Assembly (NCBI RefSeq): GCF_004210375.1
Contig: NC_134828.1
Coordinates: 19,770,400 to 19,834,399 of the forward strand
Direction: 5' to 3'
Source: Tachypleus tridentatus
Lineage: Eukaryota; Arthropoda; Merostomata; Xiphosura; Limulidae
DNA length: 64,000 nt
Part shown: in pieces, positions 1 through 64,000 of the stretch
Position numbering within the stretch: the first letter of the stretch is position 1
How the letters are laid out: each line of letters starts with the position of its first letter
Position numbers and translations under genes: made by a program
The notes under the pieces: model-generated
Database searches by the model: none
Told to the model about the DNA's origin: nothing
The model's input: only the letters and a program-made list of their open reading frames with translations

Positions 1-140
1 CAGGCCCGGTAATGACCCAGATGGATAAGGCACTCGACTTGTGTTTAAAAAAGCGGTTTGAATCCCCGTCACATCAAACATGGTCGCCATTTTAGACGTG
101 GCATTATAATGTGACGGTCAATATTTTGTTTTGGATGTAA
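1..140 (+). repeat. tRNA-derived SINE head, copy 1
   Basis: Head of a tRNA-like SINE followed by a short body with the 'cattataatgtgacggtcaat' type segment. This copy has lost bases in the tRNA-like part compared with 15703-15840, so the anticodon-arm region is broken. The A- and B-box-like blocks are degenerate. Not a functional tRNA gene. Confidence 0.7.
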
Positions 141-349
141 AATTTCAATGGACATACATCTGATGGAACACAAAAGAAGCACAAATAACTTTAAAAAAGT
201 GTCTTTCTTTTTTTTTTTTTTTCTTCCCAATATACTTCCAGCTACAAATAATGGTTGTTTATATAGTTAGAATTGTTTAATGAAACTTTGAAAAGGTAAA
301 TAATTATTCTTTACATATTACTGATCATCCCGGTTGGTACATTTGTGAA

Positions 350-550
350 GACCCCAACAATGGCTGGCATGTTGGCTAAGACATCAATAAAATGTATTTT
401 TCTCGCGTCAGAAAGCTAGAAATACAGTGAATATAATTTCTTCTAAGGACTGTAACATCGCTTAGTGGCAAGAAGTTTAAAAAAGTTATACAAGAACAAT
501 ATACCTATCGTCCGATACCTCTGGATGAAAATTATTAAATACTGGAACAA
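350..550 (-). pseudogene. Inverted fragment of a transporter exon (middle part), copy 1
   Basis: The minus strand encodes a degraded piece of the middle of the EamA/SLC35G-type transporter found on the + strand of the same unit (equivalent to residues about 90-160). This copy is the most broken of the four, with several small deletions, and leaves no open frame. The better-preserved copies are at 16052-16265 and 52943-53157. Confidence 0.7.
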
Positions 551-597
551 AATATAGTATTATGTTTTGTTTCTGTGTGAAATAAATATGTTATTTG

Positions 598-735
598 AGA
601 ACGGCTGGTATTGGTATTAACAGTTTTATTGATGAGGAGAACAAATTAGACATTCCTTTCATCTTCAAGGTAAGAAAAGATGACCGAAAGGGCTAAACGT
701 TGTTCTCACTTTATTTAATATATACCAGCCGTCTT
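598..735. repeat. Imperfect palindrome, copy 1
   Basis: Outer arms 'acggctggtattggtattaa' and its near reverse complement before 'gtcttgag' flank inner arms around 'aagatgacc'. This copy has lost a few bases compared with 16316-16475. See that entry for the comparison with hammerhead-ribozyme-like repeats. Confidence 0.65.
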
Positions 736-929
736 GAGATACATTTTTACAAGTGTGTTTCTCGTCTTCAAGAATGATCTCAAAACAGAAGACGAAAGTC
801 TATCAAAACGGTTTCCTCACACTTGTGTTTCTACAACAGACAGTTGCTGTATAACTAAGTTTCAGATAAATACATATGTTCATGAAAACACAGAAAACCA
901 ACACATATATAAGTATTCACAACAAGTAA

Positions 930-1442
930 AAAAATATCCACAGTACAAAATATAGAATAGAATACGATAAAATATCCACAGTATCATACATTAAAATAAA
1001 AGCAAAATATCCACAGTACAATACATTAAAATATAACAAAATCCACAGTACATACAGTAAAGTATGACAGAATATCCATAGTACAATACACTAAAATATA
1101 ACAAAAATCCACAGTATAGTTAAAGTAGTATGACAGAATATCCATAGTAAAATACACTATCATATTCTAAAATATACATCATACCATACATAAAAGTATA
1201 ATAAAATATGCATAGTAACATACTCTAAAATGTAACAAAATATCCGCAGTACCATACATTAAGTGTGATAAATAATCCACAGTACTACACACAAAAAAAT
1301 ATCACAAAATATTCGCAGTACCATATGCTATAACATAAACAAATATCCACAGTACCATACGCAAAAAGACAACAAAACATCTACAGTATTATACACTAAA
1401 AGACAACACAATTTCCACCGTATTATGCACTAATATAAAATA
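930..1442 (+). repeat. ~35-bp minisatellite (array A), copy 1
   Basis: Tandem degenerate repeats of about 34-38 bp built on 'tatccacagtaccatacac' plus an A/T-rich stretch. In the other units this array lies in the intron between the non-coding first exon and the coding exon. Here it directly follows the 2.3 kb deletion junction. Short ORFs inside it, such as the one at 734-955, are by-products of the repeat. Confidence 0.85.
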
Positions 1443-1878
1443 AAAGTATTTAAAAACAAGGGTCATTTGAGGAATAATGAAAATAAATACAGTAAGAACT
1501 CTTTATATCTAATACATGGGAAAATTGTTGTACGTCTCTGATCTAGAAAATTATTTGTGATAACAGGATAATTGATAACCAGGGACGGCAACATGACTTT
1601 CTTCTGGACGAGTATTCTTATTTTATAAAGACGTAAGTTGTATTTCTGAACCAAACAAAGAGTATTCATGGTTTTAAGATTGAAATAAAACTGTAATATT
1701 TTCTGTGTAAACTGTGATGGTTAGTGAGTTGTCAACAATAACTAAATAATAATTTGATTTATTATTGTTAGAAATAAGTGTTCAGCTCTTTATTGAATTT
1801 TGAATTTTTCTACTATATGTTTCTCTGAACACATTTTAAAAGCTTACAGATGTATTTTATTTTTCTATCATATTCTAG

Positions 1879-2937
1879 ATTGTCCGAACAAAGTTAAGTA
1901 TTTCAGGAAGAATATGAGAAACAGGAATACGGAAAGAGGAAACACTTCCTTTGAAGTATCAAAACATTTGGATCTCCCTTTCAGAAAATCAAATTTCCTG
2001 GTATTGGAATTATTCTAACTGTATTTCAGTGTATTGCTCAATGTATTCAATTAATGCTGGTTAAACTTACTCCAGGTGTCTCCAGACAGGTTATTTTGAT
2101 TTACCGTGGAATATACATGGCTGCTTTCTGTGTACCAGTTATTTTACATAGCCGTCACTCTTTCTTCCCAAAGATTCTGTTCCAGTATTTAATAATATGC
2201 ATCCTAGGAATTACTGGAACGATAGGTATATTGTTCTTGTATAATTCGTTAAACTTCTTGCCACTAAGCGATGTTACAGTCCTTACAAAGACAGAAATTA
2301 TATTCACTGTAATTTTAGCTTTTTTCATTCTGAGAGAAACAATACATTTTATTGACGTAATAGCCATCCCGTTAGCCATTTTGGGATCATCTTAATTAGT
2401 TGTCCATCTTTTATTTTTGGACGATTGGACAGTAAATTGGATGCACAATCTCGAATTGTTGGATCGTTACTAGCTGTTGGTTATGGTTTTTTCACCTCGT
2501 TGACGACCATCATAGTGCGTAGGATAAAATCTTTAAGCTATGCTGTGGTTATCTTCCATTACTGTGTCATCCAGACTCTACTGTTATGCACTTATCAGTT
2601 TATTGTTAACCAGACTGTATTTCCAGAATGTGGAACTGTGATTTGGTTTATACTTGGAATTGGAATACTTAGTTTTTTCACTCAGTATTTTTATGTTAAC
2701 GCCCTCTACGTCGAAAAGGCTAGTTGTGTGGCTTTAGTGGGTTCCTTGGAAATTGTTTTTTCTTTTATCTTTCAAATCACGATAACTGGTGACGATATAA
2801 CTTTGTCGAGTGTGGTAGGTCCAGTGTTCATTACATTAGCAGTAGTAATGAAAGCATGTCTTCAATGGTATTCTGAAAGTCCTGAGAGTTTTTGGAAAGC
2901 TTTGAACAAAATAGGCTTAAGATACTTTAAACGTTAA
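1879..2937 (+). pseudogene. EamA/SLC35G-type transporter, coding exon with two frameshifts (copy 1)
   Basis: Multi-pass membrane protein of the drug/metabolite transporter superfamily, closest in my reading to the SLC35G group. The exon follows a strong acceptor, pyrimidine tract plus TAG at 1876-1878. I place the start at ATG 1914 because it is conserved in all four copies and an in-frame stop precedes it in copy 4. Relative to the other copies a base is missing in an A-run near 1961 and a G near 2380, so the ~341-codon frame is split in three. The last part, 2425-2937, is open to the stop and holds the second EamA half, including 'YVEKASCVALVGSLEIVFSF'. The two breaks are single-base deletions and could be sequencing errors. 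The promoter and first exon seen in other units are absent here, so even a repaired frame may not be expressed from its own promoter. Confidence 0.8.
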
Positions 2938-5285
2938 TAGAAGATTCGACTAAATTCTTTATACAGAAGTAATATGATCGATATGGACATTGAAATTCAT
3001 AATATCAATTCTTATAGTGTACTTGGAAAAAGTGTTTTTTAATCAACGTCATACTTTTAATGAATCTTTATTTATTAAGATTAATAACCATTAATTAATA
3101 AGAAATTATAAAATTAATAAGAAAAAATGTTAAAACCTTTCTTTATGTAATCAAAATGCATGAAAAAGTATAAGTAAATATTCTGTAACATAAATATTGC
3201 TGTTAATATTTTTTAAAAATTTATCTCTGAGGTCGTTCATAGAAACCAGAAAACATATTTGAAAACAAATAAAATAATATTATTACACAGAATTTATATA
3301 TATCTCACATTTGAAGTATCTAAAGACTAAACACAGTTTTAGATAGAAATTTACATTGTAGGACTTTGGATTTTTTTATTTTTCATACCATTAAAGTACG
3401 CAAACTTTATTATATCATTTGTTAGAATGAGACCCTGAACGCAAGCTCTGAATGGTTTCCTCATAGGAGGTGAGGAGCAGAGAGCTCCATGAGGTGGAAA
3501 CAATGATGCTGTACTTATAAAATATGGAACCAGAGGGGCGTTTAGATTGGCTTACGTTGCTGTTAGTCATAGTTCCACAAAGTGGAATCAGAGAGTGCAT
3601 AACTATAGGAAAGCGTGTAATGATGAAGTAATCATTGCTGACAGTTCATGAACCAACCACAAGAGAAAATGTAGATCAATAAATATCAACATATCATCAT
3701 ATCTCTAGTAATGATAAAGCCTAAGATTAACATTACATCTAGTTTATATACTATTTTACATAATCCTGAAGAGAATGACGTGAAGTGATTAGTTCTATTA
3801 AGGCACTACAAGTGGATCATATAACTTAGAGGATATCATCATATAAAGTATCAGCTTACCGTTAGAGCTACCACTAATAAAATTAATTGTATTACGTAGA
3901 TTTTACCATTAAATGCAAACAAATTATGTTGCTAATTCATATTAATAATCATTTAAAGAGCTGCTTCAAAGGAAAATTATTACTTGAATGATGCAACTGT
4001 TATAACACTGTTACGTCAGTCATGTTTTAGTTACATTGAATACGTTTTCTACTCAATTTTATAGCTTATACTATTTTACCTTATTTGCATAAAATAATTT
4101 TCACAATATATGTTGTAACATAATTATTTATATCTACATATTTACCACACATAATTATTTAACATTGAAACTTACAAACACATAATGCATATTTGAATAT
4201 TTATAAATATTGTCTGGTGCTATTGGTTACATATATATTTATTCTACTTTCTGTCTTTGTAACTCCATTGTTATAAATATCCCTAATTTCGAATCCGTGG
4301 CATACCTATAAGTCAGGTGATCAGTTTGTAAAAAACATTCCTATAAATTCACAACAAGTGATTGCCTCTTGTTCCTCAGAGATCATAAGACAAAGGGGTA
4401 TGACCTGTCTTGGCCATGTTTCAGTGCTAAAAAGCCTTCATCGTATTTCAAGATGTCAAGTAAGGAAGAGACAAACGTTATCCAATTTTACAGTAATTTC
4501 GCAAAAATCAATTGAAACGTTCTGTTGATGATAAATCGGGGTACAACGAGAAGCCTCTTGTCTCTAGAAAGTCTACTGAAAGAAAGTCAAGTCATGAACT
4601 GCTATTAAAGGTCTCACACTAAGATCGTATTTACACGTGACCAAGGGTCCGTTAGACAAAGAAAAGCACTGTAATATTTGATAGCGTTATTCCTCTCTTC
4701 TTTAAAACCGTTAGTCATTTTTGAAACCATTGGTGGAATATTATCTGTTCCAGACGTCTTATCATGTGTTATTTTTTACGAGGTGTACGTATATGAACAT
4801 TTAGTATCTGATGTGCATTGGTAGGGAAAAGTAGCAACTAAAACATTATCAAAGGGTTATATCGTTTATTCTAAAGCCATAGAATTTAGATGAACTGTTT
4901 CTTGTCATCACCCCATGCAATCGATATAGCCGTATCAAGCATCTTTATTTAAGATATTTGCTTAATTTCATTTCACTTAATGCTAACCATTCTTTAATTA
5001 GAATAATTTCATACAATTTAGTAAATTTTGCTGAAAAGTTGGTAATGAATAAGCAATAATAACCATCTTCCCATTTGACTCTTTTGAAAACTTGAGCAAG
5101 AAACTGTTAATATAGTTTGTTCCGCCGAGCCAATGTTCATGTATCTGCCCGTTTTTTTACCCCATTTTTTGCTGTTTTAAATCAGCCATCTTTAATCCAA
5201 ATGACAAAAGTTTAAAAACGGGGAACGGTTTAATTAACGGGTAATTTTGTTTACCAGTTCCTAAATAAGAAATGTTAATGAAAAT
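2938..5285. other. AT-rich stretch without a recognised gene (copies at 20938-23280, 40049-42355, 57884-59890)
   Basis: The first part is the likely 3' untranslated region. A minus-strand 61-codon ORF at 3415-3600 recurs in all units (21415, 40496, 58360) with a small palindrome 'ttccacaaagtggaa', but I recognise no family. A + strand ORF is open in copy 3 (41439-41702, 87 codons) and copy 4 (59261-59515), while in copies 1 and 2 it is shifted by one base in an A-run; it has no motif I can name. Minus-strand ORFs at 41694-41879 and 59636-59860 share a Lys-Thr-Ser-Gly-Thr-Asp stretch that only faintly recalls reverse transcriptases. I see no firm gene in this stretch. Confidence 0.5.
3268..3273 (+). 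promoter_or_regulatory. Candidate poly(A) signal of transporter gene, copy 1
   Basis: AATAAA about 330 bases after the stop codon. It is conserved at the same relative place in the other units (21267, 40371, 58213). In such AT-rich DNA the hexamer alone is weak evidence. Confidence 0.35.
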
Positions 5286-5289
5286 GTTC

Positions 5290-5392
5290 TCCTCCTAGTA
5301 ATACCGGGGCAAGTCTGCGGTCCTACAACGATAGAAGTCTGCTATTGATACCCGTGGTGGGCAGAGAACAAATAGCTCATTAACTTAAAAAA
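5290..5392 (+). repeat. Second tRNA-like SINE family, head fragment (copy 1)
   Basis: Contains 'gcaagtctgcggtcctacaa' and 'gatacccgtggtgggcagag', followed by a remnant of the segment leading to 'ctcattaactt'. This matches, in opposite orientation, the element at about 10728-10865 of the same unit. The B-box-like part has decayed. Confidence 0.6.
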
Positions 5393-5446
5393 AACAAAAC
5401 AAATTAAAACATATAATGTTTGGTTTTGAAATGGATTATTCCACAG

Positions 5447-5647
5447 TTAAAATATAAATTTTCCATTCCCTTTGTGAACTCCTAAAAACCGTCCAATGTA
5501 AAATGCCCATTCATTTACACTTTTAACATGCTTTATTAAATCCTGATCACCATTTACCAAAGCAGCCCATTTCAGTGGTCTGTTAGATGGCATTGCTATG
5601 AGGTTCGAATCTAAGGATGGAACATGGAGGCTGTATGTACTGTGCAT
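5447..5647 (-). CDS. 66-codon ORF, possible DM9-like fragment (copy 1)
   Basis: A small minus-strand ORF identical in sequence in units 1 and 2. Near its C-terminus it reads 'WAFYIGRFLGVHKGNGKF', which recalls the 'lYvGRa.h.G...pGK' block of DM9/DUF3421 repeats found in arthropod proteins. The spacing from the preceding 'LVNGDQD' is longer than usual for that family, and only one partial repeat would be present. No signal peptide, splice site or promoter is evident, so it may be an exon fragment or a chance ORF. Family assignment is tentative. Confidence 0.25.
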   Translation of the reverse strand: MHSTYSLHVPSLDSNLIAMPSNRPLKWAALVNGDQDLIKHVKSVNEWAFYIGRFLGVHKGNGKFIF

Positions 5648-5739
5648 TCTGAATACGATTTGACATAGTGACTACAGAATAACATGCCACGTTTATCACA
5701 CATCGAAGATCACCATGCTGTCAGTTTTCTGCAACTGGA

Positions 5740-6390
5740 TGCAAGCTAGAATGTGATGCAATCTGTCAATCATTATGAGGCTAGTTCAGTTCCACAGTTT
5801 GAGAGGATCATTTGATGACTAACAGCGTCCTGGATGTCAGTGCATCACTACATCAAGATAGAGCCATTCATATGAGCCCAGATGGATAGTAAGACTTCAC
5901 GTTATTCGTCAGGACTACTTGACCACCATAAAATGCATCTTTGACTAGTTAGGAACCAAGACTTCACTTTAGCACATCATCAAACCAGAATGTAATAATA
6001 TAGGCAGCAAGAGAGATGATTGGTTTGGGTCTTCTTAGAACAAAGCCATATGGTGCTATCTGTTACGTCCACTGAGAGAGAGTGAAACACTGTTCTATTC
6101 ACAGATGAGTCACGTTTTCGTATTGTCGGGTCTGATGGACTTCAACTTGTCTGGAGAAAAGAAGGAAACCAATATGACGACAGACCAATCACTGGAGTGT
6201 CCCTAGTGTAGTGGTATTAGGAGGCAGCCACAGAATATCACATACAGAGGAACCTGAATGCTCAACGTGCTAAAACCCCACGTAATTTCCTTCCTCAGAG
6301 ACCACCATGACGTCACTCTTTGTAGCTGGACAATGCTTGTTTACACTCTGCACGTATCCATGCAGAATATGTTGTCGTAATTATATGATC
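5740..6390 (+). pseudogene. Tc1/mariner-type transposase relic (copy 1)
   Basis: Broken coding remnant of a Tc1-like DDE transposase. Conceptual translation shows, in order, a linker resembling 'RPG...ITTSR.DRAI' near 5830-5880, the first catalytic Asp in 'FTDESRF' near 6100-6120 followed by 'DGLQLVW', a 'LNAQR' block near 6253-6270, and the second catalytic Asp in a 'LDNACLHSARI' segment near 6325-6360. Several stops and shifts interrupt it. The C-terminal 'NPIEHLW' block and clear terminal inverted repeats were not found. It is distinct from the Tc1 element at 11405-12555. Confidence 0.8.
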
Positions 6391-6464
6391 ATTATACTTA
6401 CCACTATCTTCACGGGACTGAAGATATATGGGATGAGGTAGGCTACAACACCTTTAAAGATTAC

Positions 6465-6765
6465 AAAGAGAGCAGATAACAGTTGATCTAGATATTGCAG
6501 GACAAGTGGCGTGGGATTTTTCAATATAAAACAAGACATCTGGTAACCAGTAGTCTCCAGTGATCACCACAGAACAGAGAACAACTAATCCAAATACAGC
6601 AGGACGAGTGGCAGAAGAGTCATCAATATGAAATAACACATCTAGTAGCCAGTAATCTCCAGAGATTACCAGAGAACAGATATCAGCTTACCCATGTACT
6701 GCAAGACGACTGGCAGTATATTTTTCAATACAGGATAAGACGTCTTTTAAGCAGTATGAGACGTA
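6465..6765. repeat. 102-bp direct repeat, three units (copy 1)
   Basis: The anchors 'gcagg', 'gcagg' and 'gcaag' occur at 6497, 6599 and 6701, giving an exact 102-bp period. Each unit holds a 'ccagtagtctccagtgatcacc'-like segment and a 'gcaggac(a/g)agtggc' segment. The minus-strand 61-codon ORF across it is a by-product. Confidence 0.85.
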
Positions 6766-7095
6766 TGACCAAGGAACTCTTTGTTTACATTATTGAACAA
6801 AAAAACAACAACAACAAAAGACTGTCAGGTGTTTCGGTTTAAATATGTAAGGCCCCATTACTTAAAAACAGAGATAACCAGGGTTGTCACAAAATTTATT
6901 TCTCTTCACCCCACTCATAAGTTTAATATTTTGATCATGCAACCTGAAAAAAATATATATATAATAAAATTATACAATAATAATAATTCTAAACAAAACA
7001 ACCATTTCTTGAATTTCACTTGAGAAAGGCTGGCAAGCCAGCAACCCCCAAAAAACCAACAACAGACCCCGATGTGTGAATATTACAGGAATCAA

Positions 7096-7212
7096 CGGCT
7101 GATTTGGGCCTCAGGGCCCTTCGCCGGCTGATGTGGGACTCAGGGCCCTTCAACGGCTGATGTGGGTCTCAGAGTCCTTCAACGGCTGATGTGGGAATCA
7201 GGATCTTTCAGG
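7096..7212. repeat. 29-bp GC-rich minisatellite, four units (copy 1)
   Basis: Units of the form 'ggctgatgtgggactcaggg' plus 'cccttcaac', four times. It is strikingly GC-rich against the AT-rich surroundings. It sits just beyond the 3' end of the minus-strand reverse-transcriptase relic and may derive from that element's 3' untranslated region. Confidence 0.85.
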
Positions 7213-7289
7213 GCCGGAGGGGAATCCGAAGATCCTATGATAAAATTTTGATGTAGGGGATACAGAAGAACCCAACTTTTACTTGTCTG

Positions 7290-8655
7290 TCTCTAATTAT
7301 TCCCTGGAGTGCCTGAGCTATACGACAGAAGTTACGGTTCCTTTCTTTGTGAAAGATGTAAAAAACAACATACAAACATGTACGATTATGGCTCTAGGTA
7401 TTACATAAGTTACAAGGAGACTGGTGGATGTGTGTGGTGTTTCAGCCATTGCTGGGAATTGTCGAGTTAGTGTATTTTAGCATTGAGCTTGAATTTTTTA
7501 GCTGAATATTTTCTCACTAACATGAAGTAGAATTTTAAGGGGTAGGCGATATGCCACGTATATTATCTGGTATTGTATATTCTTTAATCGTTTCCTGAGG
7601 CCACTGGACGTGGTGCAAGTGACCATGCACCCATATTACATGAGAGGCCTGATAAACGCTTTGTAAATGGTTATGATGATGTCTTGGGAGCATTTTTTAT
7701 AGGTGTTTCTGATCTGTCTGAGGTTACGTGTTGTTTCGCTGAATTAGAAATTCTGCTAAAATGCTGTGTCGAGTTCAGTGCCATATTAAAATGGTGTGTC
7801 CAGATCAGTGCCATGTTAAAATGGTGTGTCCAGTTCAGTGCCATATTAAAATGGTGTGTCCAGTTTCGTGCTATGTTGAAAGTGTCTCCGAGGAATATAA
7901 TCGATTTAGTAAATTTGATCTTAGTGTTTAATAAATTTACTTTTGTCTGTGTAATCTTCTTCTGTTTCCTTTTAAAACTCCTGTGAAATATTTTTTTCTT
8001 GTGTTTTGTTATGGATACACGCCACCTGTTACACCACGTCATTATGTGGTTCGACGAAATTTGAACTTTACTAGCCACGAATAGAGAGGTCAATCGATGT
8101 ACTCCAAACTGCTACATCGTCTAAATATTGCGATGCGTGAGTATACGGGAGTTCTAGGAACGGGATACCATAGACGTGGATAATTTATAACAGCGGGCTC
8201 AGGGCTGACCCCTGGGGGGACACCAGCCGTAAGAGTAAACGGACGTGTAAGCATTTGATGTATGCGAACTCTGGCTCGTCTATTTGAGAAAAAGCTCGAA
8301 ATACATCTGATTATTGTGTCAGGGATCTTGAAATAGTGTAATTAAAATAACATTATGCTTTGGCACTATCAAAAGATTTATTAACGTGAAGAAATGTAAC
8401 GACTGTCATGTTGAATCCTTCAAATATGGTTTCAGTCAATCCACAAGGTGATCGCTCGTCTGTCTTTTGTGTCTGTCTTTGTTTTGAAATTTCTTTATCA
8501 TATAGTTGAGTTCCAGATGGTACAGTAATCTGTAACCTATAATTCTTTACATTAGTTTACCTGTGGAATTGTGGAGGCTTATTGGTCTGTAGTATGTCAG
8601 GTCTCGTATGTCAGCGGAAATATTGGGACAAACAATAATGATTGCGCTTTTCCAG
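7290..8655 (-). pseudogene. Non-LTR retrotransposon reverse transcriptase relic (copy 1)
   Basis: Minus-strand remnant of a LINE-type (Jockey/CR1-like) reverse transcriptase, read from 8655 downward. Visible blocks, across several frames, are 'WKSAIII' then 'YYRPISL' (8570-8655), a 'DHLV' segment, 'VNKSFDSAK'-like remains of the first catalytic block, 'RARVRIHQM' (about 8260), 'GVPPGVSPEP' (about 8210), remains of the catalytic loop before 'VAVWSTSID' (about 8090-8130), 'WCNRWRVSITKHK' (about 8020-8055), 'KSIIFLGDTFN', and 'IYKAFIRPLM.YGCMVTC' (about 7590-7660). The catalytic loop is degenerate and stops are frequent. The longest open piece is 7671-8093. The left boundary is uncertain. The element appears inserted into, and truncates, the inverted transporter exon that starts at 8656. 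Confidence 0.88.
7761..7888. repeat. 30-bp repeat expansion inside the reverse transcriptase relic (copy 1)
   Basis: Four units of 30 bp ('gccatattaaaatggtgtgt' plus 'ccagttcagt'). Because 30 is a multiple of three, both strands stay open. The minus strand repeats a 10-residue block 'MALNWTHHFN', which matches the 'LTW..HIN'-type segment that follows 'LGVTF' in non-LTR reverse transcriptases. The expansion therefore arose from coding sequence of the relic. The 100-codon + strand ORF at 7684-7986 is its antisense shadow. Confidence 0.85.
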
Positions 8656-9239
8656 TGTCTTTGACACTTGAAAGGAAGAATTTCCTCTTTCCGTACTCCT
8701 GTTTTTCATATTCTTCGTGATTTATAGTTAACTCTGCTCGAACATCCAGAATATGATATATAAATAAAATATAGCTATAAGCTTTTAACATGTGTTCAGA
8801 GAAACATATAGTAGAAAAAAGTCAAAACTTAATCAATAGCTGAACACTTATTTCTTACCTTTAAAACAATAATAAATTAAGTTATTATTTAGTTGTTGTT
8901 CACTCACTGACCATTACAGATTACACAGTAAACATTACAGTATTATTTCAATCTTACAACCATGAATACTGTTTGTTTGGTTCACAAATACAACCTGCGT
9001 ATTTACCTTGGTACAGTCAGAAGGAGAATCCTCGTTCATTAGAAAATCATGTTGCCATCATAATTGATAACAGGTTATTAATTATCCTGTTGTCACAAAT
9101 GGTTTTGTAGATCGGAGACGTACACTATGTGTCCCATGTATTAGATATAAAGAGTTCTAACTGTATTGAATTTCATTATTCTGTTTCAAGTGATCCTTGT
9201 TTTTAAATACTCTTGCCTTAATTTATATACGGTATAATA

Positions 9240-9731
9240 CGGTGGATATTTTGTTGTATTTTAGAATACAGCACTTTGGATATATCATTATAAATCACTG
9301 TATGGTACTGTGTATCACTTGTTAGATTTTAGAGTATTGAAATGTGGTTATTTTATAAAATTATATTACATGGTACTGTGAATATTTTATTATATTTTAG
9401 TGTATGGAATTGTGTTTTTGTATTATATTTTAGTAAACGGTTCTGCGGTTATATTTTAGTATATTTTAGTGTATGCTACAATGGATATTTTATTATAGTT
9501 TAGTATGTAATGTGGATATTTTGTTACATTTAGTATTTGAAACCATATAGAGCTTATTATATTTTTGTATATGATAGTGTGAATATTTTAATATTTTTTA
9601 GTAAATGTTACTGTAGTTATTTTATTATATTTTAGTATATGGTAATGTGGATATTTTGTTTTATTTTAGTGTATGGTACTTTTGAATATTTTGTTATATT
9701 GTAGTTAATGGTTCTGTGGATATTTTATTTA
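9240..9731 (-). repeat. ~35-bp minisatellite in opposite orientation (array B), copy 1
   Basis: The same repeat family as array A but reverse-complemented on the + strand, with units like 'tggatattttattatatttt' followed by 'agtgtatggtactg'. Its flanks on both sides match those of array A in inverted order, so it belongs to the inverted 5' half-copy and was duplicated with it. Confidence 0.85.
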
Positions 9732-10274
9732 CCGACCTGTGTCTTTTTGTTTCTTTCACAACCTGAATAACTCCAACTGGAAGGGAATTATATATGAAAA
9801 ACTTTCATTTTCCAGAGGATCTAGCTTTTCTAAGTGTTAGACTTAAATAAATCACCCAGAATTTACTATCATCTCATGTTTGAGACCGATAATCCATAAA
9901 TTGTTTTTGAAACATCATTCAGACAAACAGTTTTATTATGTTAATCTAATAAATGAAGTAAATTCTCAGTATTTCTCTATATATATTATTTTGTCTGGAA
10001 CAAGAGAACATTTCCAACAACTGTATAGAATTATATTAACGTGAGTTCCTTTTTCAATATATCTACATATGGCTGTACATTTGTTGAAAACACGATAATT
10101 ATGAACATTCATAACGACCAACTGTAAAACACATGTGGATCTAAAACTTGGATGACTCATGTTTGTGAATGTGTAATTTATCATAAAACGGATTGTTCTT
10201 CAAATGGATTTTCGTTATCAACTACGACGTGTAATTTACTCACATTTGTTCCGATTTTTTTTTTTGTTTACTTT

Positions 10275-53157: not shown

Positions 53158-53189
53158 AATATAGTATTATGTTTTGTTTCTGTGTGAAT

Positions 53190-53255
53190 GAAAGGCGAAA
53201 CGTTGTCCTCTACTTTATTTTAATAAAAGGTTTAATACCCATACCAGCCGTCTTG
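53190..53255. repeat. Single remaining arm of the palindrome, copy 4
   Basis: Only the right arm ('ggcgaaacgttgtcctctac' to 'ataccagccgtcttgag') is present; the left arm and centre are deleted. Confidence 0.6.
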
Positions 53256-54104
53256 AGATACATTTTTATTTCAAGTGTGTTTCTCGTCTTCAAGAATGAT
53301 CTCAAAACAGAAGACGAAAGTCTATTAAAACGTTTTCCTCACACTTGTGTTTCTACAACAGACAGCAGCTGTATAACTAAGCTTCAGATAAATACATATG
53401 TTCATGTCACCATTTCTCTTGAAACTTTAACCCATGTACAGCTTTTCATGACTTATTTTAGATAATATATGCTCAATAGAGGTCACTACAATATTGTGAT
53501 ATTTTTTCTCCCTCAATTTGTTATTTATTTCATTCAAACTTATGTATTATTATTGTCTGTAGTCTTTATGATAAACAAATTCTAATTATTTAATAATAAC
53601 TTTAATATTCTTATTGTTAATCAACTACTAATTACAGATTTGTTTTTATCCATTTTTCCTCTACTTGGTGGGACTCAATCCTCGGTCTTACAAACTGAGG
53701 TAAAGTTTTTATAAATCCTTCATTTCCTTAAAACTATGAGTCTGTACTGTGGTGTTAACTACTTATGTTAAAGTTGCAAAGAAAGCATCAGGCAAGCAGC
53801 TGTGACTTATAAAATGAAAACAAGTTAACAGTAAGTACCTGTATCAGGTTTATATTATTATATAAAATATTAACCATTAGAAAAATAATATTTTATCTTA
53901 ACAACCTTGACTTGAAGACCTAAATGTACCTGTATTTGCCTGCAGTCTTTACACATGTTCCACATAAGTGTAAAAAATTCAAACTTGCACTTTCACGTGC
54001 ATGTGTACATTACTTGACACGTCACATCACGTGACAAAAACAAAACTTAAAATTTGCAAATTTTCATCAGAATGCAGTTTTCAGATGGGTGTTTTTTAAT
54101 GTTA

Positions 54105-54225
54105 TCGTGTAGTTTGTATTTGAATTTCGCACAAAGCTACACGCTATCCATACATAATTTAGTAATGCAAGACCAGAGGGAAGGAAGCCAGTCATCAACA
54201 TCTACTGCCAATTCTAAGTACACTT
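54105..54225 (-). repeat. SINE tail fragment (copy 4)
   Basis: Counterpart of 17325-17450, closer to the family consensus ('aatttcgcacaaagctacac'). Confidence 0.62.
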
Positions 54226-54683
54226 TGTAGATGATTATAGAGATATTGGTTGTGCAGGTTTCTTGGATCCATCCTATTTTTTATTACCTGAATGAGACAT
54301 TGCATTACAGAATTGATGATTGGTCCAGTATTAGTAGACGTAGATGTAACACATACGAATTTGGTTGTTTTTCCGAGATGTATATGTGTATATAATATTT
54401 TGTGAACTGCTTTCGGATCATATTTTCTTTTCCCTGGGTTTTCATAAGTTTCAAAGCCACACGACAATGACCAAGTGATGAAGAGAACATGACCTTTGTT
54501 TGTAGTAACCAATGGACAGTTGGTGCACTCCAAATAGCTGAGTCACCAACTCATTTCCGCATAAGAGTACAAAAATATTTTAATATCCAATTTCCAATTA
54601 TTAAAAGCCTTTCTTGAAATATTCGTAGCTTTAACTTTTAAAGTTATGTAGTTGAAGTGTAACATTTAGTTCATTTTGTTTTC

Positions 54684-54716
54684 TATATAAAAGATTTACA
54701 CCTTTTTCACTTCATT
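54684..54716 (+). promoter_or_regulatory. Putative core promoter of the transporter gene (copy 4)
   Basis: TATATAA at 54684-54690 and initiator TCATT with +1 A at 54714. The bases around the TATA have changed relative to copies 2 and 3, but the motif pair and its ~30-base spacing are kept. Confidence 0.5.
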
Positions 54717-54986
54717 CAAGTTTTGCTCAACAGATGCCACTACTATGAGAATATGCTGTACAGATGTTTTACAGTCTTAACCGGATTGTATTTATACGGT
54801 TTACTCTCAAACACATGCCATTTTACATTTTTATTAAGAAGACAGTCTAGGTATTGTTATATAACTTCAAACGAAATCACATCATTTTACGTTTATTATT
54901 TGAAAGGTTCAAGTTTTGATGTAAAGACAAGAGTCTTTACGTTTGATGTTTGAAGTTTTACTGGAAAGATTCTTTTACTGCTTTCG
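54714..54986 (+). other. Putative non-coding first exon (copy 4)
   Basis: Ends at the conserved donor 'cg|gtaagtaact' (GT at 54987). The upstream ORF is shifted compared with copy 2, consistent with the exon being untranslated. Confidence 0.45.
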
Positions 54987-55522
54987 GTAAGTAACTTTCA
55001 TTTTGTCTCCAAGGAATCTGTTTAAAATCAGACATAGTAATCTGAAGGATTTATTCTAATCCAGTTTATACTTGGTTTGGTACTGAAATATGTTTATTTA
55101 CTATGAGATTAGTGTGGTATAGATAAAAGTTTGTGTGACAGAATTCTTTAGATATAAACATAAATTAACACATAAAGAAGTTATCAAAATGCAAACAGAA
55201 TGATAAACGATTAAAAATATCGAGTGTAATGTAACACACAAAATCGTGGAGACAAAGGTCAGAAAATCTAACTACATCTCAGTTTTAAACATATATACGC
55301 TATACAAGTAAAACTGTCTGTGTGGATATTGTTTTCACAATTTCTGGTTTATGGCCTCAAAGAACCAGTGACCATAAATATCAGTTAATTTATTTAAGAA
55401 CCAACTTATCACAGATTAGAAAATTTATATCCACTGATAAACGGAGGTTTTTAGATGTAATTCTCTTCCAAATGGAGATAATCATGTTGTGAAGAAACAA
55501 AGACACAGATCGATAAATAACT

Positions 55523-56385
55523 TATCCACAGTACCACACAACAAAATATAAGAAAATATCCACAATACCATACACTAAAATATAGCAAAATATCCACAGT
55601 ACCACACACTAAAATAAAGAATATATCCACAGTACAATACGTTAAAATATAACAAAATATCCACTGTATAATATTCTAAAATATATAGAGTACCATATAT
55701 TAAAATACGACAAAATATCCACAGTACCATACATTAAAATAAAACAAAATATTCACAGTACCATACACTAAAATATAACAAAAATCCACAGTACATACAG
55801 TAAAGTATAACAGACAATCCATAGTACAATGCACTAAAATATATCAAAATATACACAGTTCCATACATTAAAATATAACAAAATATCCACAGTACCATAT
55901 ACATTAAAATAAAACAGAATGTTCACAGTACCATACACTAAAATATAACAAAATATCTACAGTACCATACATTAAAATAAAACAGAATGTTCACAGTACC
56001 ATACACTAAAATATTACAAAAATCCACAGTACATACAGTAAAGAGTGACAGAATATCCATAGTAAAATACACTAAAATATAACAAAAATCCACAGTACAT
56101 ACAGTTAAGTATGACAGAATATCCATAGTAAAATACACTATCATATTCTAAAATATACATCGTATCATACATAAAAGTATAATAAAATATGCATAGTAAC
56201 ATACTCTAAAATGTAACAAAATATCCTCTGTACCATACATTAAGTGTGATAACATATCCACAGTACACACAAAAATATCACAAAATATTCGCAGTACCAT
56301 ATACTATAACATAAACAAATATCCACAGTATTATACACTAAAAGACAACACAATTTCCACCGTATTATGCACTAATATAAAATAA
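55523..56385 (+). repeat. ~35-bp minisatellite (array A), copy 4
   Basis: Longest version, about 860 bp. It includes a local higher-order duplication around 55870-56010, where 'acagaatgttcacagtacca' recurs. Confidence 0.87.
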
Positions 56386-56824
56386 AAGAAAAGTAGTTAA
56401 AAACAAGGGTCTTTTGAGGAATAATGAAAATAAATACAGTTAGAACTCTTTATATCTAATACATGGGAAAAATTGTTGTACGTCTCTGATCTAGAAAATC
56501 ATTTGTGATAACAGGATAATTGATAACCAGGGACGGCAACATGACTTTCTTCTGGACGAGTATTCTTATTTTATAAAGACGTAAGTTGTATTTCTGAACC
56601 AAACAAAGAGTATTCATGGTTTTAAGATTGAAATAAAACTGTAATATTTTCTGTGTAAACTGTAATGGTTAGTGAGTTATCAACAATAACTAAATAATAA
56701 TTTGATTTATTATTGTCAGAAATAAGTGTTCAGTTTTTTAATGAATTTTGAATTTTTCTACTACATGTTTTTTGAACATATGTTAATAGCTTACAGATTT
56801 TTTGTTTTTTCTATCTTATTCTAG

Positions 56825-57883
56825 ATTGTCCGAACAAAGTTCACTATAAATAAGAAAGAATATGAAAAACAGGAATACGGAAAGAGGAAACACTTCCTTT
56901 GAAGTGTCAAAGACATTTGGATCTCCCTTTCAGAAAATCAAATTTCCTGGTATTGGAATTATTCTAACTGTATTTCAGTGTATTGCTCAATGTATTCAAT
57001 TAATGCTGGTTAAACTTACTCCAGGTGTCTCCAGACAGGTTATTTTGATTTACCGTGGAATATACATGGCTGCTTTCTGTGTACCAATTATTTTACATAG
57101 CCGTCACTCTTTCTTACCGAATATTCTGTTCCAGTATTTAATAATTTTCATCCGAGGAATCACTGGAACGATAGGTATATTGTTCTTGTATAATTCGTTA
57201 AACTTCTTGCCACTAAGCGATGTTACAGTTCTTACAAAGACAGAAATTATATTCACTGTAATTCTAGCTTTCTTCATTCTGCGAGAAAAATACATTTTAT
57301 TGACGTAATAGCCATCCCGTTAGCCATTGTTGGGATCATCCTAATTAGTTGTCCATCTTTTTTTTTGGACGATTGGACAGTAAATTGGATGCACAATCTC
57401 GAATTGTTGGTCGTTACTAGCTGTTGGTTATGGTTTTTCACCTCGTTGACGACTATCATAGTGCGTAGAATAAAATCTTTAAACTATGCTGTGGTTATGT
57501 TCTCTTACTGTGCCATCCAGACTCTACTGTTATGCACTTATCAGTTTATTGTTAACGATACTGTATTTCCAGAATGTGGAACTGTGATTTGGTTCATATT
57601 TGGAATTGGAATACTTAGTTTTGTCACTCAGTATTTTTATGTTAACGCCCTCTACGTTGAAAAGGCTAGTTGTGTGGCTTTAGTGGGTTCCTTGGAAATT
57701 GTTTTTTCTTTTATCTTTCAAATCACGATAACTGGTGAAGATGTAACTTTGTCGAGTGTGGTAGGTGCAGTGTTCATTACATTAGCAGTAGTAATGAAAG
57801 CATGTCTTCAATGGTATTCTGAAAGTCCTGAGAGTTTTTGGAAAGCTTTGAACAAAATAGGCTTACGATACTTTAATAGTTAA
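56825..57883 (+). pseudogene. EamA/SLC35G-type transporter, coding exon with four one-base losses (copy 4)
   Basis: The most diverged transporter copy. The acceptor is TAG at 56822-56824. An in-frame TAA lies between the acceptor and ATG 56862, which supports 56862 (and its equivalents elsewhere) as the real start. The frame is open to about residue 141 (56862-57308), then single bases are missing in an A-run near 57290, a T-run near 57360, at 'ttggtcgtt' near 57410 and in a T-run near 57437. The second EamA half then runs open to the stop at 57883 and includes 'FVTQYFYVNALYVEKASCVA' and 'ALVGSLEIVFSFIFQITITG'. Conservative substitutions (Val to Ile, Asp to Glu, Ile to Val) dominate its differences from copies 1-3, as expected if it was long under constraint. 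Confidence 0.83.
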
Positions 57884-58212
57884 TACAAGCTTCTACTAAA
57901 TTCTCTATACAGCAGTAATATGATCGATATGGACATTGAAATTCATAATATCATTTCTTAAAGTGTATTTGGAAGAAGTGTTTTTTAATCAACGTCTTAC
58001 TTTTAGTGAATCTTTATTTATTAAGATTAATAACCACTGATTAATAAGAATTTATAAATGTAATAAGAAAAAATGTTGAAACCTTTCTTTATGTAATCAA
58101 AATGCAAGAAAAGTATAAATAAATATTCCGTAATATAAATATTGTTGTTAATATTTTCTAAAAATTGATCTCTGAGGTCATTCATAGAAACCAAAAACAA
58201 TATTTGGAAACA

Positions 58213-58218
58213 AATAAA
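58213..58218 (+). promoter_or_regulatory. Candidate poly(A) signal, copy 4
   Basis: AATAAA conserved at the same distance as in the other copies despite surrounding changes. Confidence 0.38.
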
Positions 58219-59896
58219 ATAATATTATTACACAAAATTTATATATATCTCACAATTGAATTATCTAAAGACTAAACACAGTTTTAGATAGAAATTTACA
58301 TTGTAGGACTTTGGATTGTTTTTGTTTTCATACCATTAAAGTACAGAAACTTTATTGTATCATTTGTTAGAATGAGACCCTGAACGCAAGCTCTGACTGG
58401 TTTCCTCATAGGAGGTGAGGAGCAGAGAGCTCCATGAGGTGGAAACAATGATGCTGTACTTATAAAATATGGAACCAGAAAGGCGTGTAGCTAGGCTTAC
58501 ATTGCTGTTAGTCATAGTTCCACAAAGTGGAATCAGAGAGTGCATAACTATAGGAAAGCGTATAATGATTAAGTAATCATTGTTGATACTTCATGAACCA
58601 ACCACAAGAGAAAAATGTAGATCAATAAACACATCATCATATCTCTAGTAATGATAAAAGCCTAAGATTTACATTACATCTAGTTTATATACTATTTTAC
58701 ATAATCCTGAAGAGAATGAAGTGAAGTGATTAGTTCTGTTAAGGCACTACAGGTGGATCATATAACTTAGAGGATATCATCATATAAAGTATCAGCTTAC
58801 CGTTAGAGCTACCACTAATAAAATTAATTGTATTACGTAGATTTTACCATTAAATGCAAACAAATTATATTGTTAATTCATATCCATAATCATTTAAAGA
58901 GTTGCTTCAAAGGAAAATTATTACTGGAATGATGCAACTGTAATAACACTGTTACGTCAGTCATGCTTTTACTTACATTGAATACGTTTTCTATTCAATT
59001 TTATAGTCAATACTATTTTACCTTATTTGCATAAAATAATTTTCACATTATCTGTTGTAACATAATTATTTATATCTCTACATATTTACCACACATAATA
59101 ATTTAACATTGAAACTTACAAACACATAATGCGTATTTGAATATTTATAAATATTGTCTGGTGCTATTTGTTACATATATATTTATTCTACTTTCTGTGT
59201 TTGTAACTCCATTGTTATAAATATCCCTAATTTCGATTCGGTGGCATACCTTTAAGTCAGGTGATCTCACTACAAATTGTATGGTCTACAAAACAAGTCG
59301 TATTTATCGACCACATAAAATCAGTTTGTAAAAACATTCATATAAATTCACTTAAACAACATGTCAGAATTCATCAAGTGACTGCCCCTTGTTCCTCAGA
59401 GATCATAAGTCAAAGGGGTATGACCTGTCTTGGCCATGTTTCAGAGTTAAAGAGCCTTGATCGTATTTCAAGATGTCAAGTAAGGATGAAACAAACGTTA
59501 TCCACTTTACAGTGATTTCGATAATCAATTGAAACGTTCTGTTGATGATAAATCGGGGTACAACGAAACCTCTTTCTCTAGAGAAAGTCTACTGAAAGAG
59601 AAGTCAAGTCATGAACTGGTACTAAAGGTCTCACTCTAAGGTCGTTTTGTACGTGACAAAGGGTCCGTTAGACATAGAAAAACACTGTAATATTTGATAG
59701 CGTAATTCCTCTGTTCTTTAAAACCATTAGTCTTCTTTGAAATCATTGGTGGAATATTATCTGTTCCAGATGTCTTATCATGTGTTATTTTACGAGGTGT
59801 ACGTATATGAACATTTAGTATCTGATGTGCATTGGTAGGGAAAAGTAGCAACGAAAACATTATTAAAGGGCTATATCTTTTATACTAAAGCCATAG

Positions 59897-60200
59897 AACA
59901 CTGTTCTATTCACAGATGAGTCACGTTTTCGTACTGTCGGGTCTGATGGACTTCAACTTGTCTGGAGAAGAAGAAGGAAAACAAGATGACGACATACCAA
60001 TCACTGGAGTGTCCCTAGTGACGTGGATTGAGAGAGGCAACCACAGAATTTCACATACAGAGGAACCTGAATGCTTAACGTGTTAAAACCCCACGTAATT
60101 CCCTTCCTCAGAGACTACCATGATGTCACTTTATTGTAGCTGGACAATGCTTGTTTACACTCTGCACGTATCCATGCAGAATATGTTGTCGTAATGCTAT
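59897..60200 (+). pseudogene. Tc1/mariner-type transposase relic, truncated (copy 4)
   Basis: Only the part from 'FTDESRF' onward remains. A ~1.2 kb deletion joined 'agccatagaa' to 'cactgttctattcacag', removing the N-terminal half, the second-family SINE and the DM9-like ORF. The spacing and stops downstream resemble the other copies. Confidence 0.78.
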
Positions 60201-60284
60201 GACCACTATACTTACCACTACCTTCACTGGACTGAAGATATATGTGATGAGGTAGGATACAACACCTTCAAAGATTACAAAGAG

Positions 60285-60580
60285 AGCAGATAACAGTTGA
60301 TCCAGATATTGCAGGACAAGTGGCGTGGGATATTTCAATATAAAACAAGACATCTTGTGACCAGTAGTCTCAAGTGATTACCACAGAACAGAGAAACAAC
60401 TCATCCAAGTATAGCAGGACGAGTGGCAGAAGAGTCTTCAATATGGGATAACACATCTAGTAGCCAGTAATCTCCAGAGATTACCAGAGAACAGATATCA
60501 GTTTACCCATGTACTGCAAGACGACTGGCAGTATATTTTTCAATACAGGATAAGACGTCTGTAAGCAGTATGAGACGTAT
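60285..60580. repeat. 102-bp direct repeat, three units (copy 4)
   Basis: Counterpart of 6465-6765. Confidence 0.82.
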
Positions 60581-60905
60581 GACCATGGAACTCTTTGTTT
60601 ACATTATTGAACAAAAAAAATCAACAACAAAAGACTGTCAGGTGTTTCGGTTTAAATATGTGAGTCCCCATTACTTAAAAATAGAGATAACCAGGGTTGT
60701 CAGAAAATTTCTTTCTCTTCACCCCACTCATAAGTTTGGTATTTTGATCATGCAACCGAAAAAAAATATATATAATAAAATAATACAATAATAATAATTC
60801 TAAACAAAACAACCATTTCTTGAATTTCACTTGAGAAAGGTTAGCAAGCCAGCAACCCCAGAAAAACCAACAACAGACCCGATGTGTGAATATTACAGGA
60901 ATCAA

Positions 60906-61048
60906 CGGCTGATGTGGGCCTCAGGGCCCTTCACCGAATGATGTGGGTCTCAGGGCCCTTCAACGGCTGATGTGGGACTCGGGGCCCTTCAAAGGCTGAT
61001 GTGGGACTCAGGGCTCTTCAACGAGTGATGTGGTACTCAGGATCTTTC
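60906..61048. repeat. 29-bp GC-rich minisatellite, five units (copy 4)
   Basis: One unit more than in copies 1-3, so the array has changed length since the unit was duplicated. Confidence 0.85.
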
Positions 61049-61109
61049 AGAGCCGGAGGGGGATCCGAAGATCCTATGATAAGATTTTGATGTAGGGGAT
61101 ACAGAAGAA

Positions 61110-62501
61110 CCCAACTTTTACTTGTCTGTCTCTAATTATTCCCTGGAGTGCCTGAGCTATACGAAAGAAGTTACGTTCCTTTCTTTGTAAAAGATGTAAA
61201 AACAATATACAAACATTTACGATTATGGCTCTAGGTATTACATAAGTAACGAGGAGACTGGTGGATGTGTGTGGTGTTTCAGCCATTGCTGGGAATTGTC
61301 GAGTTAGTGTGTTTTAGCATTGAGCTAGTATTTTGTAGCTGAATATTTTCTCACTAACATGGAGTAGAATATTAAGGGTTAGTCGATATGCCACGTTTAT
61401 TATCTGGTATTGTATATTCTTTAATCGTTTCCTGAGGCGACTGGACGTGGTGCAAGTGACCATGCACCCATATTACATGAGAGGCCTGATAAACGCTTTG
61501 TAAATGGTTATGATGATGTCTTGGGAGCATCCTTTATAGGTGTTTCTGATCTGTCTGAGGTTACGTGTTGTTTCGCTGAATTAGAAATTCTGCTAAAATG
61601 CTGTGTCGAGTTCAGTGCCATATTAAAATGGTGTGTCCAGATCAGTGCCATGTTAAAATGGTGTGTCCAGTTCAGTGCCATGTTAAAATGGTGTGTCCAG
61701 TTTCGTGCTATGTTGAAAGTGTCTCCGAGGAATATAATCGATTTAGTAAATTTGATCTTAGTGTTTAATAAATTCACTTTTGTCTGTGTAATCTTCTTCT
61801 GTTTGCTTTTAAAACTCCTGTGAAATATTTTTTCTTGTGTTTTGTTATGGATACACGCCACCTGTTACACCACGTCATTATGTGGTTCGACGAAATTTGA
61901 ACTTTACTAGCCACGAATAGAGAGGTCAATCGATGTACTCCAAACTGCTACATCGTCTAAATATTGAGATGCGTGAGTATACGGGAGTTCTAGGAACGGG
62001 ATACCATTGACGTGGATAATTTATAACAGCGGGCTTAGGGCTGACCCCTGGGGACACCAGCCGTAAGAGTAAACGGACGTGTAAGCGTTTGATGTATGCG
62101 AACTCTGGCTCGTCTATTTGAGAAAAGCTCAAAATACATCTGATTATTGTGTCAGGGATCTTGAGATAGTGTAATTAAAATAACATTATGCTTTGGCACT
62201 ATCAAAAGATTTATTAACGTGAAGAAATGTAACGACTGTCATGTTGAATCCTTGAAATATGGTTTCAGTCAATCCACAAGGTGATCGCTCGTCTGTCTTT
62301 TGTGTCTGTCTTTTGTGTCTGTCTTTGTTTTGAATTTTCTTTATCATATAGTTGAGTTCCAGATGGTACAGCTAATCTGTAACCTATAATTCTTTACATT
62401 AGTTTACCTGTGGAATTGTGGAGGCTTATTGGTCTGTAGTTTGTCAGGTCTCGTATGTCAGCGGAAATATTGGGACAAACAATAATGATTGCGCTTTTCC
62501 A
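61110..62501 (-). pseudogene. Non-LTR retrotransposon reverse transcriptase relic (copy 4)
   Basis: Counterpart of 7290-8655. The longest minus-strand open pieces are 61508-61861 and 61926-62132, with 'YIKRLHVRLLL' and 'GVSPKPAVINYPRQW'. A 17-base duplication of 'tctgtcttttgtgtctg' lies near 62295-62320. Confidence 0.86.
61598..61725. repeat. 30-bp repeat expansion in the reverse transcriptase relic (copy 4)
   Basis: Four units; one unit carries 'gccatgttaaaatgg' where the other copies have 'gccatattaaaatgg', as if converted by its neighbour. Confidence 0.85.
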
Positions 62502-64000
62502 GTGTCTTTGACACTTGAAAGGAAGAATTTCCTTTTCCGTACTCCTGTTTTTCATATTCTTCGTGATTTATAGTTAACTCTGCTCGAACATCTAGAATAT
62601 GATATATAAATAAAATATAGCTATAAGCTTTTAACATGTGTTCAGAGAAACATATAGTAGAAAAAGTCAAAACTAAATCAATAGCTGAACACTTATTTCT
62701 TACCTTTAAAACAATAATAAATTAAGTTATTATTTAGTTGTTGTTCACTCACTGACCATTACAGATTACACAGTAAACATTACAGTATTATTTCAATCTT
62801 ACAACCATGAATAATGTTTGTTTGGTTCACAAATACAACCTACGTATTTACCTTGGTACAGTCAGAAGGAGAATCCTCGTTCATTAGAAAATCATGTTGC
62901 CATCATAATTGATAACAGGTTATCAATTATCCTGTTGTCACAAATGGTTTTGTAGATCGGAGACGTACACTATGTGTCCCATGTATTAGATATAAAGAGT
63001 TCTAACTGTATTGAATTTCATTATTCTGTTTCAAGTGATCCTTGTTTTAAATATCCTTGCCTTAATTTTATATACGGTATAATACGGTGGATATTTTGTT
63101 GTATTTTAGAATACGGACTTTGGATATATCATTATAAATCACTGTATGGTACTGTGTATCATTTGTTAGATTTTAGAGTATTGAAATGTGGTTATTTTAT
63201 AAAATTATATTACATGGTACTGTGGATATTTGGTTATTATATTTTAAATTTTGTATGGAAGTACTGTGTTTTTGTATTATATTTTAGTAAACGGTTCTGT
63301 TTTTTGTATTATATTTTAGTATATTTTAGTGTATGCTACAATGGATATTTTATTATAGTTTAGTATGTAATGTGGATATTTTGTTACATTTAGTATCTGA
63401 TACCATGGAGAGCTTATTATATTTTAGTATATGATAGTGTAAATATTTTAATATTTTTCAGTAAATAGTACTGTAGTTATTTTATTATATTTTAGTATGT
63501 GGTAATGTGGATATTTTGTTATATTTTAGTGTATGGTACTGCGAATATTTTGTTATATTTTAGTGTATGGAACTTCGAATATTTTGTTATATTTTAGTGT
63601 ATGGCACTTTTGAATATTTTGTTATATTGTAGTTTATGGTTCTGTGGATATTTTATTTACCGATCTATGTCTTTTTGTTTCTTTCAGAACCTGAATAACT
63701 CCAACTGGAAGGGAATTATATCTGAAAAACTTTCATTTACCAGAGGATCTAGCTTTTCTAAGTGTTAGACTTAAATAAATCACCCAGAATTTACTATCAT
63801 CTCATGTTTGAGGCCGATAATCCATAAACTGTTTTTGAAACATCCTTCAGACAAACAGTTTTATTATGTTGATCTAATAAATAAAGTAAATTCTCAGTAT
63901 TTCTCTATATATATTATTTTGTCTGGAACAAGAGAACAGTTCCAACAACTTTATAGAATTATATTAACGTGAGTTCCTTTTTCAATATATCTACATATGG
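62502..64000 (-). pseudogene. Inverted copy of the transporter gene's 5' half, cut by window end (copy 4)
   Basis: Same layout as 8656-10680. Unlike copies 1-3, the exon fragment here keeps the AG acceptor (plus-strand 'catctagaatatg' at about 62589-62601). Array B lies at 63085-63662. The window ends before the SINE insert. Confidence 0.84.
63085..63662 (-). repeat. ~35-bp minisatellite in opposite orientation (array B), copy 4
   Basis: Longest array B, with extra 'gtatggtactgcgaatattt' and 'gtatggaacttcgaatattt' units. Confidence 0.85.

Follow-up and report, generated by a model that had tools for sequence, protein, structure and literature searches.

What kind of locus is a stretch of DNA that consists entirely of copies of one ~18 kb unit, each with a transporter gene, and how far are its copy number and the broken reading frames of its genes to be trusted? 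The question is raised by 64,000 nucleotides from the horseshoe crab Tachypleus tridentatus (C4:19770400-19834399 in a 2.167 Gb genome, C4 being the window's contig, NC_134828.1), which we call the window throughout. Its repeated gene encodes a membrane protein of the EamA/drug-metabolite transporter (DMT) type, which we take to belong to the SLC35G subfamily. A reading made from the letters alone (the sequence-only reading) had seen here an amplified transporter locus that might raise gene dosage, be a decaying gene cluster or be on its way to becoming a macrosatellite, with an assembly artefact as the caveat. Our own answer, which we hold to be quite probable, is that the window belongs to a real cluster, built of tandem and segmental duplications, that has recombined recently in T. 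tridentatus, that the assembly overcounts its copies and that the frame breaks of the window genes are mostly technical.

In the mechanism that we propose, an ~18 kb unit with one single-exon EamA gene would have been copied repeatedly within C4 17.8-20.0 Mb by unequal crossing-over between units, the likely motor, together with gene conversion between them. The assembly would then have broken at the locus, put alternative haplotypes next to each other and introduced small gap errors, and the assembled copy number would be too high as a result. What looks like a decaying macrosatellite would be the joint product of a repeat that is real, a gap bridged by scaffolding, and haplotype redundancy and small-gap errors, both of them probable.

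The repeated unit

Aligned with itself, the window matches on the same strand at offsets of 18.0 kb (98.95% identity over 17.8 kb), 19.1 kb (96.3% over 12.2 kb) and 17.8 kb (91.6% over 4.3 kb, with further pieces at 92-97%), and every 500-bp step except the assembly gap has a match in another unit. The ~18 kb unit is thus present in four same-strand copies, 92-99% alike and far above chance, which bears out the claim that the window is one unit repeated head to tail; the fourth copy is cut by the end of the window and ends at about window position 66454, outside it (Table 1). Units 1-2 and units 3-4 lie on different contigs (B and C) with 500 N at the join, and the order from unit 2 to unit 3 depends on scaffolding. 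The flanks of this gap (36195-36720 and 37227-37752, ~525 bases each) are 98-99% alike, which may explain the odd 19.1 kb step: if the contig ends overlap at the gap, the true step could be near 18.1 kb.

The surroundings of the window bear on whether the copying is real. We joined a region of 284 kb (19.670-19.954 Mb), sampled the stretch beyond 19.954 Mb in pieces, and counted unit matches of at least 250 bp and at least 84% identity. Four 500-N gaps, all within 155 kb, split the joined region into pieces A to E. A block of two units is found gapless in three contigs (at 19.736-19.764, at 19.808-19.837 and, reversed, at 19.892-19.920 Mb), so the tandem copying was not made by scaffolding and the proposed tandem duplication of a transporter locus stands. 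No gapless contig of the region has more than two complete units in a row, some units are inverted, and two spacers have no unit matches (C4:19690020-19708908, 18.9 kb, and 19838074-19857380, 19.3 kb). The absence of unique spacer that had been noted therefore holds inside the window and fails outside it, and the idea of a macrosatellite in the making, that is, of a long uninterrupted head-to-tail array, finds no support in this region. Published criteria for a tandem gene cluster are at least three genes that are at least 70% identical, with at most five unrelated genes between them (PMC7210998); as to number and identity, four units with a gene (19.680, 19.727, 19.736 and 19.754 Mb) share a single gapless stretch here, and their genes are more than 90% alike.

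The divergence between units 1 and 2 is a mosaic. Their 111 substitutions are clustered (longest identical tract 1782 bp, P = 0.0015), amounting to ~1.6% over 2537-7695 and to less than 0.2% over the 11 kb that follow, as if the duplication had been followed by recombination or gene conversion. Each unit carries one near-full-length EamA gene on the + strand, as had been described, plus two inverted pieces of the same gene family, which had not; all four window genes are frame-broken. The family protein P0001 (C4:17.815 Mb) matches PF00892 at 89.3 bits (cut-off 28.2) with two EamA stretches, which places it in the EamA/DMT family, and a profile of six family members matches the DMT permease 7b0k at 7e-9.

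Copy number and the assembly

Contig D, when reversed, corresponds to contig C over 46 kb at 96-99% identity, and is wholly matched by C except for 2.9 kb at one end and a short piece. The 13.6 kb non-unit spacer that the two share differs by 34 substitutions (0.25%) and 56 gaps. Contigs B, C and D measure 37-66 kb, and for the T. tridentatus assembly CNA0000821 a contig N50 of 1.69 Mb is reported (PMC7815833). The simplest reading of these alignments would be that C and D are alternative haplotypes scaffolded side by side. The case is strong for C and D and weaker for A and E, because the latter diverge by 1.3-2.1% in substitutions, which is more than the heterozygosity of 0.65% given for T. 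tridentatus (PMC6390705). In 11 hand-picked landmark pairs, A is collinear with E and what follows it, on the same strand and at offsets of 255.8-259.9 kb, and the sequence at 20.0154-20.0204 Mb is closest to A (33 substitutions in 5.0 kb), then to D (80).

Because D is largely C reversed, uncollapsed haplotypes probably inflate the copy count. Among the matches listed, 15 gene-bearing units lie at 19.68-20.01 Mb; we infer that a haploid genome may hold 7 to 15 of them. The caveat of an assembly artefact thus spares the repeat, which is real, and falls on the number of its copies. As in genomes with uncollapsed haplotigs (PMC6267036), contigs are repeated within a scaffold with near-identical spacer included; unlike there, the repetition overlies a real tandem repeat, and alleles and paralogues are hard to separate.

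A mirrored arrangement occurs elsewhere in the same cluster, where the mid-unit copies of C4:19.313-19.377 and 19.468-19.535 Mb have spacings of 27.2/35.1 and 29.5/35.2 kb, respectively. The tree pairs the genes of 19.338 and 19.507 Mb as sisters, and an inverted haplotig or an inverted duplication is possible there.

Extent of the unit and of the gene family

The unit is restricted to C4, as far as a mid-unit probe reaches. This non-coding probe (4500-6400; 40 of 2087 candidates scored) gave 46 matches, of which 35 are on C4, at 17.82 and 19.26-20.02 Mb; the other 11, on nine contigs, are only ~340-360 bp long at 76-78% identity.

For the gene family, we pooled two protein searches and merged matches less than 1.2 kb apart, so that the counts include fragments and possible redundancy. 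The family has at least 179 distinct assembled loci, at least 163 of them on C4. Among the matches listed, to which the next counts also refer, the C4 loci fall into 40 at 17.8-20.0 Mb, 120 at 31.8-33.9 Mb and 3 elsewhere, and the loci off C4 include a few distant members (26-32% identity). At least 98 loci are matched by both protein halves, and an open frame of at least 320 codons is present in 43 of these 98 (12 of 27 at 17.8-20.0 Mb, 23 of 61 at 31.8-33.9 Mb). We fetched 24 family loci, most of them picked for long frames, and in 21 of them a frame of 292-403 codons is open; the 17.8-20.0 Mb cluster has seven open copies of full length (341-345 codons). The coding part of full-length copies is a single exon, since the full length fits one open frame. 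On the chromosome that also holds the window, the loci at C4 31.8-33.9 Mb make up a second cluster of the family, with greater divergence.

In that second cluster (C4:31.80-33.87 Mb), at least 120 family loci stand in ~2 Mb, mostly with 45-71% protein identity to the window queries. Some pairs there have identical scores, and redundancy may again be involved. Many of the listed family matches contain stops.

Frame breaks in the window genes

Nine young broken copies, those of contigs A to D and L033, were compared with open copies; L033 was counted as broken though, from an inner methionine, it has 294 open codons, and the broken copies at 19.266, 19.373, 19.471, 19.568 and 20.012 Mb were left out of the comparison. 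The nine differ from open copies by 34 gaps, of which 32 are of 1-2 bases and the other two, of 3 and 15 bases, are both in copy 3. Among the short gaps, 23 of 32 fall in runs of three or more, and 30 gaps are bases missing from the broken copy. None of the nine has a stop created by substitution; among three older broken copies (L038-L040), one does (L038). If damage beyond sequencing error is taken as the mark of a pseudogene, then the window offers mostly gaps of 1-2 bases, and among the copies compared a substitution stop is seen only in the older L038.

Small gaps of the same kind occur outside the units. In the spacer of C and D, 50 of the gaps are of one base, 43 of the 54 short ones fall in runs of three or more, and 19 are missing from C and 37 from D. 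The spacer of A and E has 130 substitutions and 12 gaps in 8.7 kb, and the genes that adjoin it (19.680, 19.936) are open. Units 1 and 2, with 57 short gaps to their 111 substitutions, lie between these two patterns, and in the profile of C against D the patch rich in gaps at copy 3 continues beyond the gene. Because their non-unit sequence has the same small-gap spectrum, contigs C and D would appear to be poorly polished, and we conclude from these spectra that the frame breaks of units 3-4 are probably for the most part technical.

Alternative explanations

If all assembled copies were real per haploid genome, the locus would be a large array in which true inverted and direct segmental duplications of 40-90 kb lie atop the 18 kb tandem unit. 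Several results weigh for this and against haplotypes laid side by side: the divergence of A and E exceeds the reported heterozygosity, their left edges differ, none of the E matches listed pairs with the 19.733 Mb landmark of A, and A's inverted unit (19.725 Mb) falls short of its E partner in length, so that the A/E pair could be paralogous. The copies of the two-unit block are, moreover, distinguishable, and the control family PF00562 has three loci with no repeated part, which indicates that redundancy is not general in the assembly. That nearly all of D is matched by C reversed, with so few substitutions in 13.6 kb of spacer, and that contigs B, C and D are so short beside the contig N50, argue the other way, and we judge an array of wholly real copies to be rather unlikely. 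The unit might also be a mobile element with the transporter gene as cargo, given that inverted gene pieces and minisatellites flank part of it and that transposon-like remnants lie inside it. Off C4, however, the mid-unit probe met only a dispersed repeat of ~350 bp at 76-78% identity (40 of 2087 candidates scored), and no long transposase frame is present among the listed open reading frames and ten frames scanned; a mobile element is thus very improbable, and we rejected it on the ground that the probe found no dispersal of the unit over chromosomes.

The technical origin of the frame breaks has its own competitor, namely that the window genes are genuine pseudogenes and that the cluster is losing function. 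A number of observations count against our preferred reading here. All four window copies are broken; copies 3 and 4, with 12 and 4 gaps, are above the rate in the C spacer (19 in 13.6 kb); the right end of A is gap-rich relative to both C and D; and a non-homopolymer gap is common to window copy 1 and the 19.736 Mb copy of another contig, and may be inherited. The substitutions of the young broken copies look neutral, the 24 distinct changes being 18 nonsynonymous, 6 synonymous and 0 stop for a neutral expectation of 17.1, 5.8 and 1.1, and the ratio of nonsynonymous to synonymous rates (dN/dS, as a ratio of means) is 0.74 among ten young copies, seven full length and three open over 294 codons. 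Young copies that are true recent pseudogenes are therefore possible. In the wider family, there are the substitution stop in one of three older broken copies, the stops in many listed matches and the both-half loci listed that have no 320-codon frame (15 of 27 at 17.8-20.0 Mb, 38 of 61 at 31.8-33.9 Mb). Set against all this are the recurrence of the small-gap spectrum in non-unit sequence of contigs C and D, the open copies on stretches with a natural gap spectrum, and the absence of substitution stops from the nine young broken copies. This absence is not significant alone (0 stops for 1.1 expected, P = 0.31), and nonsense-free frames were rejected as proof of function for that reason. On balance, genuine pseudogenes in the window seem unlikely to us; the description of a decaying gene cluster is not borne out for the window, but in the wider cluster decay is seen, in the stop of L038 and the 15 of 27 loci. 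A last alternative is that the array has been selected for more transporter, as a beneficial gene dosage. Near-identical open copies at 19.680 and 19.936 Mb, though possibly alleles, would fit it, but no constraint is detectable among young copies, and such selection appears doubtful. In the older cluster, dN/dS is 0.35 (ratio of means, 6 genes, 15 pairs); these comparisons support a long-term constraint that would act on the family, whereas constraint on the newest copies is unsupported.

Relation to known clusters and possible function

The recombining and overcounted cluster that we favor is of a kind already known from horseshoe crabs, that of large tandem gene clusters. In the mangrove horseshoe crab, 230 tandem gene clusters are reported, the largest of which is that of carcinolectin-5b with 79 genes in ~850 kb, and FucTC has 29 genes in ~820 kb (PMC7210998). 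The present locus is like these in coming from a lineage rich in large tandem clusters and in its similar spacing per gene and span; it is unlike them in being formed by a membrane-transporter family, with at least 120 plus at least 40 assembled loci (fragments and possible redundancy included), and SLC35 is absent from the main text of that paper. An SLC35G expansion is not reported among the literature matches listed, and the term "SLC35" is absent from the main text of the horseshoe-crab genome papers searched. Here tandem and segmental duplication enlarges a transporter family, in a lineage for which the clusters published so far are chiefly those of immune genes.

Mammals have few SLC35G copies; many loci of the presumed SLC35G type are assembled in the horseshoe crab. 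Among the mammalian proteins, SLC35G1 is reported to transport citrate (PMC11542916) and SLC35G3 to transport UDP-GlcNAc, in testis (PMC12611266), and the horseshoe-crab protein shares with them the EamA/DMT type, having two EamA stretches. By analogy with SLC35G1 and SLC35G3, it probably moves a small anionic metabolite or a nucleotide sugar across a membrane. More tentatively, and in our estimate improbably, this could rank among the largest expansions of single-exon EamA (SLC35G-type) transporters in animals, with ~160 assembled loci (among the matches listed) divided between two clusters on the same chromosome. The family would still be growing as 18 kb units duplicate, and it would serve a lineage-specific role, for instance in supplying glycans or exporting organic anions in amebocytes or gametes. 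What interests most about the locus is the size of the family, and if that size holds, the roles of many near-identical transporters become a testable question.

Anatomy of the unit and minor observations

Within a unit, a 34-bp minisatellite is followed by the EamA gene (+), a 1.2 kb stretch with a dispersed repeat (missing from unit 4), an inverted 5' gene piece with its own 34-bp array, the remnant of a transposon that we presume to be Tc1-like, a 137-bp minisatellite and an inverted middle gene piece (Table 1). Two left edges of repeated blocks, both of them in contig A, are at the equivalent of 15206 and one, in contig D, at that of 17727; three blocks have their right edge at the equivalent of 14454. 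Because the 15206 and 14454 edges adjoin the 137-bp array, the natural unit junction is probably at that array, with the unit starting near 15206 and ending near 14454. The 34-bp array had been considered as a marker of the unit boundary and was dropped, since three right and two left edges adjoin the 137-bp array; the left edge of D (17727) does not.

Table 1. Features of the window, in window positions
Feature	Position	Strand	Remarks
Unit 1	931..18958	+	phase arbitrary
Unit 2	18959..36720	+	ends at contig end; 98.95% identical to unit 1, 0.63% substitutions
Assembly gap, 500 N, between two contigs	36721..37220	.	
Unit 3	37227..55677	+	first complete unit of next contig; tail of a unit precedes
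Unit 4	55678..64000	+	type without the stretch equivalent to 4884-6086; runs on past the window
EamA (SLC35G-type) gene copy 1	1914..2934	+	two 1-base gaps relative to open copy
EamA gene copy 2	19914..20934	+	two 1-base gaps relative to open copy
EamA gene copy 3	39046..40045	+	12 gaps (10 of 1-2 bases) relative to open copy
EamA gene copy 4	56862..57880	+	four 1-base gaps and 2 substitutions relative to open copy at C4:19.754 Mb
34-bp minisatellite upstream of gene	970..1444; also 18746-19444, 37747-38577, 55523-56387	+	length varies among units
Inverted 5' piece of EamA gene with own 34-bp array	8656..9729; also 26638-27711, 45703-46806, 62503-63654	-	
Tc1-like transposon remnant (presumed name)	11407..12554	-	two transposase-like fragments, Pfam scores below cut-off; missing from unit-4 type
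137-bp minisatellite at suggested unit junction	14607..15171; also 32592-33154, 51653-52074	+	
Inverted middle piece of EamA gene	16015..16275; also near 347-555, 34010-34255, 52906-53166	-	

No tRNA or Rfam gene was found at threshold in the window. The dispersed repeat at window 4866-5221 is ~350 bp long and recurs on nine other contigs at 76-78% identity. A satellite that repeats every ~50 bp is present, ~97% alike, at C4:19670000-19673019 (L009) and C4:19712311-19714409, 42 kb apart, in both cases adjoining units. Farther along the chromosome, the best match to an RNA polymerase subunit 2 domain (C4:47893193-47894317) falls within a single open frame, 1133 codons long, while the two other loci match in pieces; the gene at C4:47893193-47894317 is possibly intronless or retroposed. 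The mitochondrial contig, of 15,008 bp, carries what we take to be ND2, COX1, COX2, ATP8 and ATP6 in this order on one strand, with COX1 and COX2 adjacent, as in chelicerates. At C9:118898281-118899402, COX1-like fragments with stops lie in a nuclear contig and are likely a mitochondrial insertion.

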